Shown here in pieces: positions 49,193-63,293 of a stretch of DNA of 64,000 nucleotides. Every line of letters starts with the position of its first letter. Positions within the stretch are counted from its first letter, which is position 1. This DNA is from Yinghuangia seranimata (GTDB lineage Bacteria > Actinomycetota > Actinomycetes > Streptomycetales > Streptomycetaceae). The stretch covers positions 1 to 64,000 of the forward strand of contig NZ_JASAOI010000026.1 in assembly GCF_029953285.1 (NCBI RefSeq), written 5' to 3'. Made by a program: the position numbers and the translations under genes. The notes beneath the pieces are model-generated. The model was not told the DNA's origin, searched no databases, and saw only the letters and a list, made by a program, of their open reading frames with translations.

Positions 49193-49266
49193 GCCGCCTT
49201 AGCTCAGTCGGCCAGAGCGACGCACTCGTAATGCGTAGGTCAAGGGTTCGATTCCCTTAGGCGGCT
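49193..49266 (+). tRNA. tRNA-Thr (anticodon CGU)
   Basis: A 74-nt cloverleaf: acceptor GCCGCCT pairs with AGGCGGC (49259-49265); D arm GCTC/GAGC; anticodon stem ACGCA/TGCGT with loop CTCGTAA (anticodon CGT, reads ACG); T arm with GGTTCGATTCC; discriminator T, no encoded CCA. Its 3' half is the presumed integration site of the element to its right. Confidence 0.95.
49230..49266. other. Presumed attL core within the tRNA 3' half
   Basis: AICE integrases of this type recombine at the anticodon-to-3' end of tRNA genes, and the intact tRNA next to the integrase fits. The boundary is approximate, because the second copy needed to define the core is not in this window. Confidence 0.5.
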
Positions 49267-49311
49267 CAGCGTAAAGACGCTGGTCACAGGCCAGTTGTCC
49301 ACTGCCCGTCC

Positions 49312-49365: not shown

Positions 49366-50634
49366 CTACGCGACCAACGCGGTTTGGGGTGTGCGCGGCG
49401 TCGGGATCGCCGTCGGAGCACCCCGCTCGACGACCGCCCGCATCGCCGTGACGAGGCGCGTGCGCAGCAGCAGCCGCTCCCGCTTCGCGTCGAGCGCGTC
49501 GGCTACCTCGTCGAGCCGGTCGGGCCACAGGTGCCCGTAGATGTTCAGCGTCATGGCCGCGTCCTTGTGCCCGAGCATGAGCTGAATCACCTTCACGTCC
49601 GCGCCAGCTGCAATGGCCAGCGAGGCCGCGGTGTGCCGCAGCTTGTGCGGCGTGATCCCGAGACCGCCGAGCCCGGCCGCCTTCACAGCCTTGTCGAACA
49701 CCCGGCCCCGGAAGTTGCTGTACCGGAGCGGCCCGCCCCCGGGCGCGGTGAACAGCAGATCGGCCGCCTTCAACCCGGCCGCCGCCGCGCTCAGTTCCTC
49801 GGCGAAGGAACGGGGGAGCGGGACGGAGCGCTTCTCGTGGTTTTTCACCGGCCCGAGTGCGAGCACGCCCTTCACGTCGCTATACGCCTGGACGATCCGC
49901 AGACGCCGCGTGGCGGCGTTGATCCGGCCGACCTTCACCGCGGACGCCTCACCCCAGCGGATCCCGCAGTACCCGAGAACCAGGATGAGTGTGCGGTAGT
50001 CGTCGGCCGCGTCCGCCAGCCGTTCCAACTGCTCGTGCGTCAGATAGACGTGATCGTCGTCATCGTCGACGGCCGGCAACTCGTGATCGGTCGCCGGGTT
50101 CACCGCGATGCGACCGGACTTCACCGCGTGCTTCATGACCATGGCGAACACCCGGTACGTCTTGATGACCCGCGCCGCGCCCAGCTTCCGACCGGACAGC
50201 CCCGGCTGATCGCACAGTTCAGCGATCCACGCGGACACCTCGGCCCACTGCACCGCCGAGACCTGCCAGCCACTCCACTTCGGCAGCACGTAGCTGTCCA
50301 GGAGTTCGCGGTAGTCCCGCAGCGTGGTCCGCGCCTTGCTGCGCTTCGTCGCGAACCACTCCTCGGCGACGACGGAGAACAGCGCCTTCCCGAGTGCGGG
50401 GTCGCGGTAGCTGCCCTTGTCGAGCCGCGTCGTGATCGCCGTGACCTCGGCCTCGGCCTGCGGCAGCTTCCCGAACGTCTTGGCCTTGCCCTTCCCGTCC
50501 GGCCCGTACCAGCGCACGCGCCACCGGCCCGGCGGCTGCCGTTTGCTGCCGGCCTTCTTGGCCGCTTTCCACTTGACGATCGCCTCTTGGTAGTCGGCGT
50601 GCGTCTCCCGGTCCTCAATCCATACCCGTGCCAT
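49366..50634 (-). CDS. int: Tyrosine site-specific integrase
   Basis: A 422-residue integrase. N-terminal arm-binding region, SAM-like core-binding domain (residues about 85-175), catalytic domain with Arg226 (GYCGIRWGEA), His330-x-x-Arg333 (PHKLRHTA), His356 (LGHKDAAMT) and nucleophile Tyr366 (NIYGHLW). All key residues are present, so it should be active for insertion at the tRNA-Thr 3' end. The ATG at 50634 shares one base with the stop of the upstream XRE gene (TGATG) and is preceded by GGAGAGGA, so the two are translated together. Confidence 0.95.
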   Translation of the reverse strand: MARVWIEDRETHADYQEAIVKWKAAKKAGSKRQPPGRWRVRWYGPDGKGKAKTFGKLPQAEAEVTAITTRLDKGSYRDPALGKALFSVVAEEWFATKRSKARTTLRDYRELLDSYVLPKWSGWQVSAVQWAEVSAWIAELCDQPGLSGRKLGAARVIKTYRVFAMVMKHAVKSGRIAVNPATDHELPAVDDDDDHVYLTHEQLERLADAADDYRTLILVLGYCGIRWGEASAVKVGRINAATRRLRIVQAYSDVKGVLALGPVKNHEKRSVPLPRSFAEELSAAAAGLKAADLLFTAPGGGPLRYSNFRGRVFDKAVKAAGLGGLGITPHKLRHTAASLAIAAGADVKVIQLMLGHKDAAMTLNIYGHLWPDRLDEVADALDAKRERLLLRTRLVTAMRAVVERGAPTAIPTPRTPQTALVA

Positions 50635-51940: not shown

Positions 51941-52260
51941 TGAACACCACCACCACCCCGGAAGCCGTCGTCAGCGTCGAGGCGTTCGCCGAACACGCCG
52001 CCCGCCACGGCTACGACGACACCGACGCCGACATGACCATCGTGCGCGTCGCGCTGCCCTTCGGCGCCATCGGATACGGCCTGGTCGACGACAACGGCCG
52101 CCGCTGGCTCGTCGTCGCCGAAACCCTCGGCGAGTACGCCGCCCACATGTTCGGGCTCTACTTCGCCGACGTCCTCGACCGTCACCCGGACAAGGCCGAC
52201 GAGCTGATCCGCATCGCCGAACACGTCCCGGGAACGTTCGTCGACGGGCCGGTCGAGTGA
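51940..52260 (+). CDS. Hypothetical AICE protein
   Basis: A 106-residue acidic alpha/beta protein (VSVEAFAEHAARHGYDDTDADMTIVRVALPFGAIGYGLVDDNGRRWLVVAE). No family recognised. The ATG overlaps the previous stop (TGATG), indicating coupled translation. Confidence 0.75.
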   Translation: MNTTTTPEAVVSVEAFAEHAARHGYDDTDADMTIVRVALPFGAIGYGLVDDNGRRWLVVAETLGEYAAHMFGLYFADVLDRHPDKADELIRIAEHVPGTFVDGPVE

Positions 52261-52763
52261 CCAGCACCGACACCGCCGGAGCCCGGGGCGCATGGCCGCC
52301 CCGGGCCTCCCGGCCTACCCACCTCGACGGCCCCGCGGTGCGTGCCTGGCTCACGGCGCAGGCAGACGCGCTCCACGCCCTCGAACCCGGCTCCGACATC
52401 CCACAGTTCGGCACGCTCGAGTGGGAGCAGGCCGGCGAGACCATCCGCCGGGTCGCCGCGCTGCGGTTCGCCGCCGCCCGGTACGAGGACGACGTCGAGC
52501 TGCGCGAGCGCTTGCGCCTCGAGGTCGCGGACATGCGGGCCGCGCGGCTCGCCTACGAAAACGACGTCGTCGACGAGATCACCGCCGCCGTCCGCCCCGA
52601 CCGGCACGACCTCGCCCGGCTCCCGACGCTCGAAGTCCTCCAGGCGCGGCGCCGCGAATACCCCGAACCACGACCCATGATCCAAGCCCCGGGCTGGCCT
52701 GCCCCGATCATCCCCGGATCGGGCGGGCGACGCCTGGGCGAACCCGAGACGGGTGCAGCGTGA
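52257..52763 (+). CDS. Hypothetical AICE protein, helical
   Basis: A 168-residue protein rich in Arg/Glu/Asp helices (VAALRFAAARYEDDVELRERLRLEVADMRAARLAYENDVVDEI), likely coiled-coil in the middle, with a Pro-rich C-terminus. GTG at 52257 overlaps the previous stop (GTGA), and its own stop overlaps the DUF927 start. Function unknown; position suggests an accessory to the P-loop protein. Confidence 0.72.
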   Translation: MTSTDTAGARGAWPPRASRPTHLDGPAVRAWLTAQADALHALEPGSDIPQFGTLEWEQAGETIRRVAALRFAAARYEDDVELRERLRLEVADMRAARLAYENDVVDEITAAVRPDRHDLARLPTLEVLQARRREYPEPRPMIQAPGWPAPIIPGSGGRRLGEPETGAA

Positions 52764-54487
52764 CCGACCAGCAAGAAACCGCCGACGGCGGTACCGGACT
52801 CGGCGCCTTCCGGCGGATCATCCGCCCGGACGGCACCGCCGTGGACCGGTACCGCTGTCCGACCGGGTACCGCGCGGACACACGCGGTATCTGGGCCGTA
52901 CGCGAGACCCGGGAAGGCGACGTCCTCACGCGGGTCACGTACGCCCCCTTGATCATCCGCGCTGTCTACGTCGACCCGTCCGGCGACCAGACGGTGGAAC
53001 TCGCATGGATCGACAACGGCCGCGTCGTCCCCCGCATCGTGGCCCGGTCGACCGCGAAACGCGGGCGCCTGCTCGTCGCCACCCTCGGCGACGCCGGACT
53101 GCCCGCGATCGAAGCGGACGCCAAGCTCCTCGAACGGTGGCTGGCCGCGTGGGAAGCGTGCAACTGGGACGCCATCCCGCGGTTCAACCTCGCCCGCACC
53201 CTCGGGTGGCAACCGGACGGCACGTTCGTCACGTCGCAGGACTCGCCGCTGCGGGTCGAGGTGAAGTACGACGAGCAAAAGCCCGCGCTGGCCGCACACG
53301 CCCCTCACGGCACCCTCGACGGGTGGCAGGACGCCGTCAAGCATCTGGAGGGCTACCCGGCCGCGCAGACCGCCCTCCACGCCGCTTTCGCCGCGCCGCT
53401 GCTGCCGATCCTCGGCGTCAACTCGTACGTCCTCGACATCGCCGGCCGGTCCACCCGCGGCAAGACCACCGCGGCGGCGGCCGGGCTGAGCGCGTGGGCT
53501 GACCCGAGCGAGAAGTCCGACGGCATGTACTCGTGGCGAACCACGATGCTCGCGCTTGAGAAGCGGCTCAACCTCGTCAACGGCCTGCCGGTCGTCGTCG
53601 ACGAGACGAAGCTGGTCAAGGACCCCGAGTTCGTGCACGCCGTGCTCTACCAGGTACCCAAGAACCGCGGGCAGGCACGCGGCGGCGGATGGCCCAGCGG
53701 CCTGCCGTGGCACACCATCGTCATCTCCACCGGGGAACAGTCCGTCCTCACGTACACCACCGACCAGGGCGCCGCCGCGCGCGTCCTGACCGTCAAGGAA
53801 CCGCCGTTCGGCACGGACGGCCCGGCATCGGCCGCCGCGGCCATCGCCGTACGGGACGGGTGCGCGGAGAACCACGGCACTGCCGGCCCCCGCTTCGTCG
53901 AGCACCTCATGCGCCTGCTCGCCGCCGAAGGGAAAACCCGGCTCGTCGCCCGACACCGCGAACTCGCCGACGCGTGCCGGGGCGAGAACGACATGAGCGC
54001 GCGGCGCGCCCCGCTCGTCGCCGCCCTCATGCTCGCGGCCGAACTCGCCCACGCCTGGGGCATCATCCCGTTCGCTCCTCCGGAATCCAGCGCGTGGAAG
54101 CGGCTGTTCACCTCCTCCGAGCCGACCGACAACCGCGGGGAAATGGCCCTCGACGTCGTCCGCGAGTACGTCGCCGCGAACAGCCGCGCCGTGTGGCGCC
54201 CCCACAGCACGGACGACGCGCCCGTCACCGGCTGGATCGGCCGCGAACTCGTGGAAAGCGGCCGGTCGACGGTGGCTCTCCTGCCCGAGCGGCTGAAGGA
54301 GTCCCTCCGCCGCGCCGGGTACGAAGTGGAGTCGGTCATCCCCGGGTGGCGGGAGAGCGGGGTCCTGATCGAGAACGCGTCGTACCGGCCCGCCTACCTG
54401 ATCAAGAAGAAGATCAATGGCTCCGTCGCCCGGATGTACGTCTTTTCGCCCGACGTGTTCGCCAGCGACACGAACGACGGAGAGTGA
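52760..54487 (+). CDS. DUF927-domain P-loop ATPase (putative replication helicase-like)
   Basis: A 575-residue protein. The DUF927 region runs from about residue 60 to 340 (PLIIRAVYVDPSGDQTVELAW, FNLARTLGWQPDG, FAAPLLPILGVNSYVLDIAG), with Walker A GRSTRGKTT near residues 229-237 and an acidic motif VVVDETKLVKD. DUF927 proteins occur with primases in phages and integrative elements and are thought to be helicase-like replication factors. It lies just upstream of the iteron-like dyads and 2.6 kb before the prim-pol gene, so a role in AICE replication is likely (inference). GTG start coupled to the previous gene. Confidence 0.85.
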   Translation: MTDQQETADGGTGLGAFRRIIRPDGTAVDRYRCPTGYRADTRGIWAVRETREGDVLTRVTYAPLIIRAVYVDPSGDQTVELAWIDNGRVVPRIVARSTAKRGRLLVATLGDAGLPAIEADAKLLERWLAAWEACNWDAIPRFNLARTLGWQPDGTFVTSQDSPLRVEVKYDEQKPALAAHAPHGTLDGWQDAVKHLEGYPAAQTALHAAFAAPLLPILGVNSYVLDIAGRSTRGKTTAAAAGLSAWADPSEKSDGMYSWRTTMLALEKRLNLVNGLPVVVDETKLVKDPEFVHAVLYQVPKNRGQARGGGWPSGLPWHTIVISTGEQSVLTYTTDQGAAARVLTVKEPPFGTDGPASAAAAIAVRDGCAENHGTAGPRFVEHLMRLLAAEGKTRLVARHRELADACRGENDMSARRAPLVAALMLAAELAHAWGIIPFAPPESSAWKRLFTSSEPTDNRGEMALDVVREYVAANSRAVWRPHSTDDAPVTGWIGRELVESGRSTVALLPERLKESLRRAGYEVESVIPGWRESGVLIENASYRPAYLIKKKINGSVARMYVFSPDVFASDTNDGE

Positions 54488-54488
54488 C

Positions 54489-54785
54489 ATGACCCGGCCA
54501 CGGACCGAAAACACAGCCCCTCTCTGGGCTTTGCGTGCGTACCCCCGGGTCTGCAAGGCAAAGCCACAGGTCAAGTCCTATGTGGCAGGGGTACGCAGTC
54601 GCGCGTACCCCCAGAACCGCTCAGGCGGGGGTACGCAGCTGCGCGTACCCCTCGCCGGAACCAGGTTTACGCAGGTCAGGGCCGCTTCTGCTATCGCGTC
54701 CCACGGGGGTACGCAACTGAGCCGAGAACAGGGCCCGCTGTTCGGAGCGCAGACACACATCGTGACGACGGACGACCCGGCATGA
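54489..54785 (+). CDS. Doubtful small frame over the iteron cluster
   Basis: A 98-residue open frame directly after the DUF927 gene (GTGACATG junction). Its composition (many Arg, Ser, Gln) and weak third-position bias are unlike neighbouring genes, and it is filled by the GGGGTACGC repeats. More likely non-coding. Confidence 0.25.
   Translation: MTRPRTENTAPLWALRAYPRVCKAKPQVKSYVAGVRSRAYPQNRSGGGTQLRVPLAGTRFTQVRAASAIASHGGTQLSREQGPLFGAQTHIVTTDDPA
54536..54715. repeat. Iteron-like cluster: two GGGGTACGC-N6-GCGTACCCC dyads plus outer half-sites
   Basis: Dyads at 54588-54611 and 54628-54651 are identical in both arms, each with a 6-nt spacer, and their centres are 40 bp apart. Single half-sites flank them: TGCGTACCCCC at 54536-54546 and GGGGGTACGCA at 54705-54715, with a degenerate TTTACGCAG at 54666. 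The cluster lies between the DUF927 gene and the next operon. It is the best candidate for the element's replication origin or the binding array of a replication or transfer protein. Confidence 0.75.
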
Positions 54786-54997
54786 CCAACCCTGACGACC
54801 GCGTCGCCCGCATGGTCGAGGACGCCCGCCGACGGCGCGAGCAGCAGACCGCCGACCGGGCCGCGTTCGCCGCCGCCCGCGCGGCCGGACTCCGCTCCCG
54901 CCACGCCCAGAAGCTCGCCCGACTCCGCGGCGACCTCACCGACCCCGAATCCCTCGACGAACCCGACGATGACGACCCCGGCCCGACGCCCGCGTGA
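54782..54997 (+). CDS. Small charged AICE protein
   Basis: A 71-residue protein, strongly charged and helical (DRVARMVEDARRRREQQTADRAAFAAARAAGLRSRHAQKLARLRGDL), with an acidic C-terminus (DEPDDDDPG). No recognised family. Third-position bias supports coding. It follows the iteron region and lies 10 bp before the HTH gene. Confidence 0.6.
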   Translation: MTNPDDRVARMVEDARRRREQQTADRAAFAAARAAGLRSRHAQKLARLRGDLTDPESLDEPDDDDPGPTPA

Positions 54998-55007
54998 GGA
55001 CAGCGGC

Positions 55008-55415
55008 ATGAACCCGAACCGGCCGGCATCCGCATACGTCCACGGCAACGGCGCCGTCGTCATCGTCCCCGGCCGGATCGCCGCACTCCTCGACAAGCTC
55101 GTCGACCTCACCCGACTGCGCATCGACGTCCGCGGGCAAGACCCCGAACTCGACAACGTGCTCGTCGCCCTGCGCGTCGCCGCCCTCGCGTGGCGGGCGT
55201 CCGTCGGCGGACACACCGAGCGGACAACCCCGGACCCGATGCCAGCGTGGATCACGACCGGACAGACCGCCGACCTCCTCGGCGTCGACCCCCGGCACGT
55301 ACGACGCCTCGCCGCCGGAGGCCGACTCGCCGGACGCCAACTACCCCACGGGGCATGGCTCATCGAACGCGAATCCGCCGAGCACTACCGCGCGGTCCGA
55401 CACCGGGCCGCCTGA
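55008..55415 (+). CDS. Helix-turn-helix (excisionase-type) DNA-binding protein
   Basis: A 135-residue protein. The N-terminal 70 residues are unassigned (VVIVPGRIAALLDKLVDLTRLRID); the C-terminal part is a MerR/excisionase-like HTH (WITTGQTADLLGVDPRHVRRLAAGGRLAGRQLPHGAWLIERESAEHYRA). ATG 55008 with GAGGA 7 nt upstream. It could bind the nearby GGGGTACGC array (inference from proximity). Confidence 0.78.
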   Translation: MNPNRPASAYVHGNGAVVIVPGRIAALLDKLVDLTRLRIDVRGQDPELDNVLVALRVAALAWRASVGGHTERTTPDPMPAWITTGQTADLLGVDPRHVRRLAAGGRLAGRQLPHGAWLIERESAEHYRAVRHRAA

Positions 55416-56014: not shown

Positions 56015-56757
56015 CCTACGCAGCCCAAGCCCTCGCCGCCGCCCGCGCATACGGCCTCCCCATCCCGGACCAGGTCGACCAGGCCGACGCGCTGCACGCC
56101 GCGGTACACGCCGCCGCGAACGCCCACGACCCCGACCCGCCGCAACTCCCCACCAGCGCCGACGACCTCCCCGGCATCCTCGCCACCTACGGCCAAGACG
56201 TCGCCGCCGTCCATGCCGCCCGCGCCGCCGCGGCAGCCATGTGCGCCCCCGCCGCCCAACAACTTCACCAAGCCGTCGCCGCCATCGCCGCAGGGTGGAT
56301 CAAGGTGCTCGCCACCGACTTCGACACCTCCGCAAAGCAGTTCACCGCCAAGGCACGCAACATCCCCTACAACGCCCGCGAAGACTCTCTCGGCCAGCTC
56401 AACCCCAAGCAGTTCGGCGACTGGCAACAGGCACGCAAACACGCACACACACTCGACACCATCACCGAACTCCGCGAGACCATCGCACGCGCAGCAGGCG
56501 AACCCACGCACCACGACAAGGCCCTGTTCGCCGTAACCCAACTACCACCCGCACCCGACAACCCCGACAACTGGCCCGACATCGCAGCCCACATCACCGC
56601 GTGGCGCGACCGACGAGCCGACCCCGTACGACGATGGGTCACCCTCACCACCGCCGGCCTCCCCCTCACCCTCGCCCCCCTCGGCGCACCCACCGAACGC
56701 GCAGCCGAACGCGAGCGATGGAGAGAGAACTACATCAACCGCAAGCAACGACGTTGA
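56011..56757 (+). CDS. Hypothetical AICE protein
   Basis: A 248-residue protein, helical N-terminal half (AAQALAAARAYGLPIPDQVDQADALHAAVHAAANAHD), with a basic C-terminus (ENYINRKQRR). No recognised domain. Coupled to the preceding gene by ATGA. The end of the gene and the sequence just after it are A/C-rich and less GC-rich than elsewhere. Last gene before the terminator at 56922-56948. Confidence 0.75.
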   Translation: MTYAAQALAAARAYGLPIPDQVDQADALHAAVHAAANAHDPDPPQLPTSADDLPGILATYGQDVAAVHAARAAAAAMCAPAAQQLHQAVAAIAAGWIKVLATDFDTSAKQFTAKARNIPYNAREDSLGQLNPKQFGDWQQARKHAHTLDTITELRETIARAAGEPTHHDKALFAVTQLPPAPDNPDNWPDIAAHITAWRDRRADPVRRWVTLTTAGLPLTLAPLGAPTERAAERERWRENYINRKQRR

Positions 56758-56921
56758 TCAACCGCAAGACAAGAACAACGACAAGACGAACGAGAACAGC
56801 AACGCGGACACGACGCGGCAGCAGCACAGCCCCACAACACCGGCCCGAACCACCGGCCCCCGTCACCGCAACCGCGGTACGGGGGCGACCCGCACTCAGA
56901 CCGGGACGGACATGGGCATAC

Positions 56922-56948
56922 CCCCCTGGGGCCCAACCCCCCAGGGGG
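56922..56948 (+). terminator. Terminator at the end of the long AICE operon
   Basis: A 10-bp stem CCCCCTGGGG/CCCCAGGGGG with a 7-nt loop, flanked by ATAC and CATAT. It ends the 54782-56757 transcript. Confidence 0.7.
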
Positions 56949-57119: not shown

Positions 57120-57746
57120 GTGGCGAAGGGCAGCGTGTGCGCGCACTGCGGGGCGGAGATGCCGCTGCGGTCCCTGGCGTTGACCTGCTCGAACGCGTGT
57201 CGGCAGGCGGCGTACCGGGCGCGCCGGAAGGCGGAGCGGGCTGCGGCGGTGCCGGCCGAACTGCGGGCGCGGGCGCGCTGGGTGCGGCACGCGGCGAAGC
57301 GGCCGATGCGCACGGACGGGAAGTGGGCGTCGACGACGGACCCGTCGACGTGGTCGGACTACGCGACGGCGCGGGACTGTGCGCGGGGCGAGGGGATCGG
57401 CTACGTGCTGGCGCCGGGCGACGGCGTGGTCGTGGTCGACCTGGATCACGCGGTGCGCGCGGACGGCGGCCTGGAGCCGTGGGCTCGCCTGATCGTGGAC
57501 GCCCTGCCGACGACGTTCATGGAGCGGGGCCGGTCTGGTACCGGCCTGCACCTGTGGTTCCGTGGCGAGCTGGTGCACGGACGGAAGATCCGTCGCGGTG
57601 AGGTCGCCCTCGAGGTGTACGGCCGCGACCGGTACATCATCCTCGGCGACCGGGTTCCGGGTTCGCCTTCTGAGCTTGCCGAACTGCCGGATGTGGCAGC
57701 GGTGATCAGTGGCCTTGTGGCTACGCGCCCGGGCTCCACGCCTTAA
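57120..57746 (+). CDS. Compact primase-polymerase (RepPP-type) with N-terminal zinc finger
   Basis: A 208-residue protein. The N-terminal zinc finger has Cys7, Cys10, Cys23, Cys27 (CAHC...CSNAC) followed by a basic helix. The prim-pol domain has catalytic DxD in VVVVDLDHAV, the nucleotide-binding GRSGTGLHLWF, and EVYGRDRYIILGDR. Bifunctional DNA primase/polymerases define the RepPP class of AICE. It is short compared with multi-domain prim-pols, so the helicase function may come from the separate DUF927 protein. The 3' end overlaps the convergent cargo gene by 26 bp. Confidence 0.88.
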   Translation: MAKGSVCAHCGAEMPLRSLALTCSNACRQAAYRARRKAERAAAVPAELRARARWVRHAAKRPMRTDGKWASTTDPSTWSDYATARDCARGEGIGYVLAPGDGVVVVDLDHAVRADGGLEPWARLIVDALPTTFMERGRSGTGLHLWFRGELVHGRKIRRGEVALEVYGRDRYIILGDRVPGSPSELAELPDVAAVISGLVATRPGSTP

Positions 57747-61229: not shown

Positions 61230-63293
61230 TTACCCCGGTTCCCCCAGCCTGTGGGCAGCGGTTTCGACGTCGTCCCGCCGGTATCCGCGGCGCGTTCCGG
61301 CCCCGGGGAAGTGCATGGGGTTCGGGGTCACGCCGAGCGGGCGGAGCAGGGTGGCGAGGTGGTCGACGTCGTCCGCCTGGTCGAGCTTGTCCGCCAGCTC
61401 TGCCGACGTGATGCGGTCGCGGCCGTCGCCGATGATGTCGAGGACGTTCCGCAGCAGCACCGCCCGCGGGTCGTCGTCGCCAGCACCGGGCAGCGTCCCG
61501 GCCTGCTTGCGCAGCTCGTACGCGCGGCGGGCGACGTCGTCGGCGTGCGCGTCCGGGGTGTAGAACCCGCGGACCCGGGTCGGGGTCGAGGACTCCGACA
61601 GGAACAGGCCGGCGCCCTGGTGTTCTTCGGCGAACTCCATGGCGTTGAACCCGCGGCCGGCCATGCCGCGCCCGAGGATGGTGTCGGACATCTCCGGTGT
61701 CGAGCAGCGTCCGGCCCACCGGTATTTGATCAGGTCGCGCAGGAACGACGGGATCACCTTGTCCTCCGGCTTCTGGGTGAGCAGCACCGGCACGATGCCC
61801 GCCGCGCGTCCCTCGGCGGCGATCTTCCGCAACAGCTCCTTGATGGTCTTGCCGTGGTCGGGGTCGAGGCACAGGCCGGCCAACTCGTCGATCCACAAGA
61901 ACAGCAGCGGCAGGCCCATCGCGGGGTCGAGCTTCTTGGCGCCCGCGGCGAGGATGACGTCGTACCGGCGCCCCATCTCCTCGACCGCGTCCTCGAGGAG
62001 CGCCACCACACTCGCCGCGTCGTCCGGAACCGACAGGCGCGTACAGATCGGGTGCCACGCCATCGTGTCGACGCCGCGTTTGACCGGGGTCAGCCACAAC
62101 TCGGCGTGCGGGTCGAGGCCCACCGCCATGAGCAACGCCAGCGCGCTCATGCTCTTGCCCGCCCCGGGTTGCCCGCCGTACAGGAACGAGCCCTCGAACG
62201 CCGAGACGGTCACCGGGCGGTCGCGGATGTCGCGGAACAGCTCGACCCGGCCCCACATGTCCGTCTGCCCCGCACCGGGGCGCGCGAGCGGGTTCGTGGG
62301 CGAGTCGCCGGTGAACGGGTGCTCGTTGTAGACGCGCAGCAGAACCCGCCCGCCGTGGCCGCGTACGTGCGCGAGGTCGACCTGTGCGGGGTCGGTGCCG
62401 AACGCGGACGCCAGCTCGGCGCCGCGCCTCACGGCCTTGTCCGCCGGGACCCCGCCCGGCAGCTCGACCATGGCCACCCATGCCGTGCCGTCGCTCGCCA
62501 CCGGGCCGACCACCCGCACGGCGCCGAGCTTCGCCGCGGCGAACGCTTCGCGGACGGCCTTGCTGCCCAGACGTCCGGTCACCAGTGCGGGCCCGGTGTC
62601 GGCGGGTACGCGCCTGCGCTTCTCGACCGCGGCGGCCGTGCCGAACACCGCGGCGCCGAGCAGGTACGGCGTGGCCGGCCACTGCGCGACGTCGCCGACG
62701 GTGCCGAGCAGGCCCCCGACGGGCCCAAGATGGTCGAGGAGCCACCCGACCGGCTTGTCAACGACCGGCAGCGCATCAACCGCCGTGAACCCGGCCGTCC
62801 CGCCGACCGACCACGTGAGCGTCTTCCGCCGCCGCGCCCGGATCTTCTCGACCATCTCCGGCTTCTCGGCGCGGTGGTCGGCGTACTCGTCGGCGCGCAC
62901 CCACCGCCACAGGAGACCGGCGCCCCGCGCGGTACCCGCCAGCCCAAGTACGAGCGTCTGCCCGGCCACCCTGGCGACCACCACGGGCGCCACCCGACGA
63001 CCACCCGTAACCCGGTGCACGAGCCGCTTGGCGGTCGTCGAGGTGGTGTCATTGACACCACCTGCGGTGGTCGTCTTGATGGTCGTGCGACCGGCCGCCG
63101 CGGCGACCAGCGGGACCGTGGAGCGTGTCACGACCGCGCCCTCGACGAGACCGGCCTGACGCAGCATCTCGTCGGTGTCGACGACCGGGATGGTTACATT
63201 TGTAACCGTTGCCTGGGGTGCGAGAGCACCGGACGGGCGGCCGTGCACGAACTCCGGCTCGTCCTCCGGCCGGTGCTGGATGACCTCGGTCAC
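61230..63293 (-). CDS. traB: FtsK/SpoIIIE-type conjugative DNA translocase (TraB)
   Basis: A 687-residue protein. N-terminal membrane-associated region with hydrophobic segments around residues 100-130, 160-175 and 205-222; motor domain with Walker A YGGQPGAGKSMSA (about 371-383) and Walker B LLFLWIDE (463-470); TQKPEDKVIPSFLRDLIKYRWAGR as RecA-fold motifs; C-terminal winged helix (ITSAELADKLDQADDVDHLATLLRPLGVTPNP). Such TraB motors form membrane pores and pump double-stranded plasmid/AICE DNA into the recipient. GTG at 63293 overlaps the previous stop as GTGA. Confidence 0.93.
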   Translation of the reverse strand: MTEVIQHRPEDEPEFVHGRPSGALAPQATVTNVTIPVVDTDEMLRQAGLVEGAVVTRSTVPLVAAAAGRTTIKTTTAGGVNDTTSTTAKRLVHRVTGGRRVAPVVVARVAGQTLVLGLAGTARGAGLLWRWVRADEYADHRAEKPEMVEKIRARRRKTLTWSVGGTAGFTAVDALPVVDKPVGWLLDHLGPVGGLLGTVGDVAQWPATPYLLGAAVFGTAAAVEKRRRVPADTGPALVTGRLGSKAVREAFAAAKLGAVRVVGPVASDGTAWVAMVELPGGVPADKAVRRGAELASAFGTDPAQVDLAHVRGHGGRVLLRVYNEHPFTGDSPTNPLARPGAGQTDMWGRVELFRDIRDRPVTVSAFEGSFLYGGQPGAGKSMSALALLMAVGLDPHAELWLTPVKRGVDTMAWHPICTRLSVPDDAASVVALLEDAVEEMGRRYDVILAAGAKKLDPAMGLPLLFLWIDELAGLCLDPDHGKTIKELLRKIAAEGRAAGIVPVLLTQKPEDKVIPSFLRDLIKYRWAGRCSTPEMSDTILGRGMAGRGFNAMEFAEEHQGAGLFLSESSTPTRVRGFYTPDAHADDVARRAYELRKQAGTLPGAGDDDPRAVLLRNVLDIIGDGRDRITSAELADKLDQADDVDHLATLLRPLGVTPNPMHFPGAGTRRGYRRDDVETAAHRLGEPG

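Follow-up and report, generated by a model that had tools for sequence, protein, structure and literature searches.

Directly behind a DUF927 gene in Yinghuangia seranimata lies an array of short repeats that is, in our judgement, very probably the replication origin of an excised circular AICE, with the DUF927 protein from the preceding gene as its initiator. The array is in a stretch of 64,000 nucleotides (the window), and an original prediction from the letters of this stretch had named it a candidate AICE origin. That proposal is supported by the array itself, by the conservation of arrays in a fixed place behind DUF927 genes, and by the Rep/Cch fold family of the protein, all of which come from sequence comparisons.

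The element and its DUF927 protein

The array sits within a 15.9-kb AICE-like element that is integrated in tRNA-Thr. The left attachment site (attL, 43 bp, 49225-49267, + strand) is at the 3' end of tRNA-Thr(CGT), and its exact 43-bp repeat (attR) lies 15.9 kb away, at contig position 65135-65177, beyond the window. Besides these att repeats at a tRNA gene, the element has the other parts by which AICEs are recognized: a tyrosine integrase (49366-50634, - strand; PF00589, E = 4e-23), an FtsK/SpoIIIE-type (TraB-like) transfer gene (61230-63293, - strand; PF01580, E = 9e-9), and, as a replication protein of the RepSA, RepAM, or Prim-Pol kinds (PMC3218068), a small Prim-Pol (57120-57746, + strand; PF09250, E = 4e-11), which is likely to be the primase of the module. 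In gene content, the element corresponds to an AICE with Prim-Pol. Among the element proteins that we scanned, there was no match to RepAM (DUF3631) or to the Rep_3 initiators of classical iteron plasmids, and there was no terminase among 17 proteins scanned. The element also encodes an XRE protein (at 50634), an HTH_17 protein (at 55008), and a NUDIX protein. A strong G/C-rich inverted repeat (56909-56946, around CATACCCCCCTGGGGCCCAACCCCCCAGGGGGCATAT) lies between the gene that ends at 56757 and the Prim-Pol gene.

The DUF927 gene (52760-54487, + strand) encodes a putative initiator-helicase with a C-terminal HTH_56 (Cch-type) domain (PF06048, E = 4e-33; PF18662, E = 4e-7). We chose its start from gene overlap and from relatives: it is probably the GTG at 52760, which overlaps the stop of the open reading frame at 52257-52763, rather than the upstream ATG at 52292. 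We modelled the protein with AlphaFold2, using 16 relatives and leaving out sequences from the plasmid collection (mean pLDDT 81, pTM 0.69). In a fold search, the model matched SaPIbov1 Rep (8tch, E = 4e-26) and SCCmec Cch (5dgk, E = 2e-25), and a sequence search with the protein found the same two structures (E = 1e-15 for 8tch). Part of the model (about 107 residues) had a weaker match (E = 0.03) to TcpK, whose structure was solved on oriT DNA. The C-terminus of the model is winged-helix-like; the C-terminal domain spans about residues 455-575, and the Walker A residue is K235. The protein is thus modelled as an initiator-helicase with the SaPIbov1 Rep / SCCmec Cch fold and a C-terminal winged-helix domain, and both HTH_56 and the model predict that this domain binds DNA.

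Six exact half-sites

The array is made of six mismatch-free copies of GGGGTACGC within 178 bp (54537-54714), and the first half-site lies 49 bp 3' of the stop codon of the DUF927 gene. Half-site 1 (54537-54545, - strand) and half-site 6 (54706-54714, + strand) stand alone. Between them are two inverted pairs of the form GGGGTACGC-N6-GCGTACCCC: dyad 1 (half-sites 2 and 3, 54588-54611) has AGTCGC at its core and dyad 2 (half-sites 4 and 5, 54628-54651) has AGCTGC, with 40 bp from centre to centre. The original prediction gave the positions of both dyads and their 40-bp distance exactly. It also called the dyads identical, which is true of the arms but not of the cores, and it correctly noticed the single half-sites on either side, but its starts for them (54536 and 54705) are one base off.

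No other exact copies of GGGGTACGC are in the window. The genome has 181 copies in 9.8 Mb (elsewhere, about one per 54 kb), so a stretch of 178 bp would be expected to contain just 0.003 copies; the probability of finding six there is about 1e-13 (corrected for the whole genome). The full dyad, without mismatches, has no second occurrence anywhere in the genome. Within the part of the element that is inside the 64 kb, an equally strong repeated 8-mer was found in 0 of 270 other 400-bp segments.

We compared the array to that of the closest relative (locus L046/L053), whose DUF927 protein is 66% identical and whose element carries an FtsK-like gene. All six half-sites, along with both copies of a second motif (the box described below), are within 1 bp of their positions in the window. 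Half-sites are identical at 54 of 54 positions and boxes at 15 of 18, while spacers are identical at just 52 of 127 (P = 1e-16 for half-sites versus spacers, Fisher exact test), and the unpaired half-sites are as well conserved as the paired ones. In two other loci (L021 and L023), the half-sites are in the same order as in the window, and the gaps in the dyads are 10 bp longer, which is one helical turn. This pattern suggests that proteins bind along one face of the helix, and it speaks against the sequence being coding or acting as hairpins.

An open frame does run through the array (54489-54785), but it had no match in a Pfam scan, and where it differs from the closest relative, it is exactly the half-sites, not the codons, that have been spared. 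We therefore rejected a coding use of this frame, in agreement with the original impression that the array does not look coding. The proposed origin region (54488-54781, + strand), which extends from the DUF927 gene to the open reading frame at 54782-54997, is probably non-coding.

Arrays behind other DUF927 genes

We gathered relatives of the DUF927 protein from reference genomes, viral contigs, plasmids, and relatives of the host, and we read the DNA 3' of each gene. (For genome contigs, a scan with a single protein found no loci, while an alignment of three proteins found six.) The survey of arrays leaves out the low-identity loci L032, L033, and L037-L043, and some of the loci that we call actinobacterial-type are unclassified viral contigs. 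An array of a short motif lies directly 3' of the stop codon in the window and in 19 other actinobacterial-type loci with a full-length relative (29-66% identity). In a blind count of repeats at the first 14 loci, the array was the strongest repeat of the locus in 8 cases. In the other six (L024, L025, L028, L029, L031, and L019), rival segments matched the array, which was recognized partly via relatives; the weakest array, at L028, was identified through its relatives and not by the repeat count.

The motif changes by lineage. The window, its closest relative, Frankia torreyi, and Parafrankia soli all have GGGGTACGC, and at other loci the motif has drifted to GGGCTACGC, GGGGTACGT, CCGGTACGC, CCGGTACGA, CCGGTTACGC, GGCGTTACGC, GGCGTAACGC, CCAGTTACCC, or GGGGGAACAG. 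The pairing of the half-sites varies as well (N6, N16, or direct repeats). So, when it was suggested to look for conserved dyads after other DUF927 genes, the expectation was borne out for arrays, which are behind every full-length actinobacterial-type relative that we examined but one (L065), and not for the exact dyads. The conserved feature is an array of half-sites behind the gene, plus the box.

Among more distant relatives, there is an array behind the DUF927 gene in 8 of 9 loci, namely phages of Thermoanaerobacterium, Faecalibacterium, Ruminococcus, and Roseburia and plasmids of Geobacillus, Eubacterium, Enterobacter, and Citrobacter. (For the Ruminococcus phage, a small gene intervenes, and the array of the Roseburia phage was judged by eye.) The exception is a megaplasmid gene from Antarctobacter (L064), which has no array behind it and no detectable HTH_56 domain. 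The link between arrays and HTH_56 is imperfect, because the Enterobacter protein has an array and no detectable HTH_56. Another gene without an array directly behind it encodes a 1115-amino-acid DUF927 protein on plasmid pPR2 of Planobispora rosea (L065, which is not among the 20 loci); its match to HTH_56 is weak and internal. L065 is a counterexample to the general rule.

Several features of individual loci are worth recording. Many of L025, L027-L031, L035, L036, L020 (pFP4), and L019 have a long alternating purine-pyrimidine tract (CATGCGCATGTGCGCG...) behind the DUF927 gene, and several of these origins have a purine-rich AGAAGAGAAGAAGAAAGAG tract just 5' of the second box. Both kinds of tract are missing from the window origin. 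From reading the sequences, the DUF927 domain of L035 appears to be fused to an N-terminal primase of the TOPRIM/DnaG type and that of L036 to one of the Prim-Pol type; both loci retain an array and a box like those of the others, and the type of primase seems to be interchangeable. In L047 (G647:C12:29811-31454), the matched stretch of the DUF927 relative has four in-frame stops and the array behind it is intact; this is possibly a decaying or frameshifted element. Finally, the exact dyad has 12 matches in viral contigs. These look like chance matches because a motif count in the retrieved stretches found no array like the window's (at most one extra half-site, over 1 kb away), and we rejected them. 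One of them (L014) shares its contig with the DUF927 locus L031, at which the array is built from a different motif.

A second conserved box

Besides the half-sites, the window array contains two copies of another motif, which the original prediction overlooked: CAGGTCAAG at 54567-54575 (+ strand), which has the same position in the closest relative and a similar place in the L021 group, and CAGGTCAGG at 54672-54680 (+ strand). When 14 origins were compared, the most widely shared 8-mer was CAGGTCAG, which is not a half-site and was present in 12 of the 14. Across 19 loci, there are 19 occurrences, distributed over 15 of the loci, versus 0.3 expected from shuffled sequences, although these counts overstate the case because the loci are not independent. 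The box was noted in the window, L019, L021, L022, L024-L031, L035, L047, and L048. If one mismatch is allowed, there are often two copies per origin, and they are frequently 19-21 bp 5' of a half-site.

The box is common to origins that are otherwise very unlike each other, and it is better conserved across loci than the half-sites are. It is not the same as the DnaA box of Streptomyces (consensus in PMC3583192). It may be the site of a host factor, a second contact for the initiator, or a signal for melting or priming. We tentatively raise the possibility, which we consider rather less than an even bet, that the actinobacterial DUF927 origins form a distinct class with two signals: a fast-drifting half-site that would be read by the C-terminal domain of the initiator, and a slowly changing CAGGTCAG box, usually in two copies, that would be read by a conserved factor (a host protein or the helicase).

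Comparison to known origins

The layout of an initiator gene with iterons downstream is already known from phage-inducible islands. It has been reported (PMC7581432) that the C-terminus of SaPI Rep recognizes iterons immediately following its own gene and that SaPIbov1 Rep and Cch are related proteins. Rep-ori segments from PICIs drive plasmid replication, and in these origins, two sets of iterons flank an AT-rich segment (PMC6092414). The window shares with the SaPIbov1 Rep-ori and the PICIs an initiator helicase of the DUF927 family, a predicted C-terminal DNA-binding domain, and short repeats directly 3' of the gene, which the 19 relatives have as well. In contrast to the SaPIs and PICIs, the window element is of the conjugative type (with an FtsK-like transfer gene and integration in a tRNA gene) and, as far as we can see, is not phage-inducible. 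Its origin is also high in GC, has the extra CAGGTCAG box, and lacks an AT-rich segment between two sets of iterons: we searched the window origin for an AT-rich melting segment, and the lowest GC content in any 40 bases was 55%. (In Streptomyces-type relatives, the middle of the array is 30-38% GC.) Because of the missing segment, the window copy, whose function is predicted, is an incomplete member of the SaPI/PICI class of origins. The window array most likely works like a SaPI/PICI origin, and the idea that it could be a new type of replication origin was too strong, since SaPIs and other PICIs already show this layout.

Other systems are similar in part. SCCmec Cch, which is also a DUF927 protein, shares its fold with the window protein; we found no published set of iterons for Cch in the open-access literature. 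Cch2 belongs to a different helicase family, but its C-terminal domain likewise binds repeats between its own gene and the next gene (PMC7581432). The Streptomyces phage-plasmid pFP4 and the S. virginiae plasmid NZ_CP108092 encode a Prim-Pol and a DUF927 protein (about 40% identity), and an array comes immediately after the DUF927 gene, but unlike the window, they have the motifs CCAGTTACCC and GGGGGAACAG, an AT-richer middle, and phage genes. The origin of pFP4 may already be described in the paper on this plasmid (Plasmid 2012). In the repAB-iteron locus of Streptomyces plasmid pWTY27, the initiator binds an adjacent GTGGGAAC array, as seen by gel shift and footprint, and 300 bp are needed for replication (PMC3583192). 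This locus also combines a Prim-Pol (RepB) with an initiator and an adjacent array, but RepA is called hypothetical.

A probable binder of the array and a proposed mechanism

The original prediction offered three proteins as possible binders of the array: the DUF927 protein, the Prim-Pol, or the HTH protein. The DUF927 protein fits best, because it is the only gene of the window element that we found beside all of the arrays (the other element genes are not common to the loci), and because the C-terminus of proteins in the Rep/Cch family is reported to act on downstream iterons. The Prim-Pol and the HTH protein fit less well. Together with the conserved arrays, the reported binding by relatives with the DUF927 fold supports the origin reading, with the DUF927 protein as the probable binder. 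Similarity of half-sites was correlated with similarity of the C-terminal domain (r = 0.40, or a partial correlation of 0.27 given the helicase core), while the partial correlation with the helicase core was -0.09; these values are from a hand-made alignment of motifs and from related sequences. That half-sites vary more in step with the C-terminal domain than with the helicase core is a weak but concordant sign.

Binding, ring loading, duplex opening, priming, and origin activity are all expected from the family. The C-terminal winged-helix domain of the DUF927 protein would bind the GGGGTACGC half-sites, and pairs of half-sites would help helicase rings to assemble, perhaps two hexamers, which is the arrangement suggested for SaPI Rep. 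The duplex would open nearby, and the rings would load onto single strands and unwind the DNA. The Prim-Pol and host enzymes would then prime and copy it. What counts against the origin reading is that the AT-rich segment of PICI origins is absent from the window, that the covariation with the C-terminal domain is modest, and that L065 has no array directly behind it.

Alternative explanations

Instead of an origin, the array might be an operator, from which a repressor (the HTH_17 protein, the XRE protein, or the initiator) controls the downstream operon. The array does precede a run of small genes that includes the HTH_17 protein. Also, many initiators are regulators as well, which is compatible with an origin, and the arrays could in principle regulate the module too. 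However, an array is retained while the downstream genes differ between loci, and at least six sites across 180-350 bp is long for an operator. Nor did a scan for sigma-70-like promoters, which covers Streptomyces-type promoters only partly, find one at 54300-54900. We consider an operator improbable.

It is quite unlikely that the array is a clt locus, or double-stranded DNA that is bound by the FtsK/SpoIIIE-like transfer protein. The element does encode such a protein, and short repeats are present in the clt sites of Streptomyces plasmids. In pWTY27, a 159-bp clt adjoins traA (PMC3583192). But our array is about 6.5 kb from the transfer gene and adjoins the DUF927 gene instead, and the same layout is found in phages and plasmids with no annotated transfer gene in the stretches viewed. 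We give the least credence of all to a role in RNA, in which the dyads downstream of the DUF927 gene would form hairpins that serve as terminators or processing signals. As RNA, GGGGTACGC-N6-GCGTACCCC could fold into a strong hairpin, but a terminator scan shows no T-tailed hairpin at the dyads, relatives have arms with 16 bp between them, or direct repeats, which could not pair, and isolated half-sites are no less conserved than paired ones.

Implications

A replication origin remains our preferred reading of the array. The origins of Prim-Pol AICEs have hardly been described, and when AICEs were surveyed, the replication genes beside Prim-Pol were left as "unforeseen AICE replication modules" (PMC3218068). 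In open-access text, we found no report of an origin of the DUF927 type in AICEs; similarly, we could not find a description there of its occurrence in AICE-like elements, of the breadth of the rule, or of the CAGGTCAG box. The window provides a precise and cheaply testable candidate origin for one such class of AICEs. More broadly, AICE-like elements, phage-plasmids, phages, and small plasmids from several phyla have much the same layout. A practical rule is to search the DNA right after any gene for a DUF927 protein that ends in HTH_56; this would find the origins of many elements that lack annotation. The drifting half-sites are natural variants for learning how the C-terminal domain reads DNA. 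And if there is a class of origins with two signals, then the initiator and its origin would be a portable module, and the DNA that follows the gene would reveal the motif of the module.
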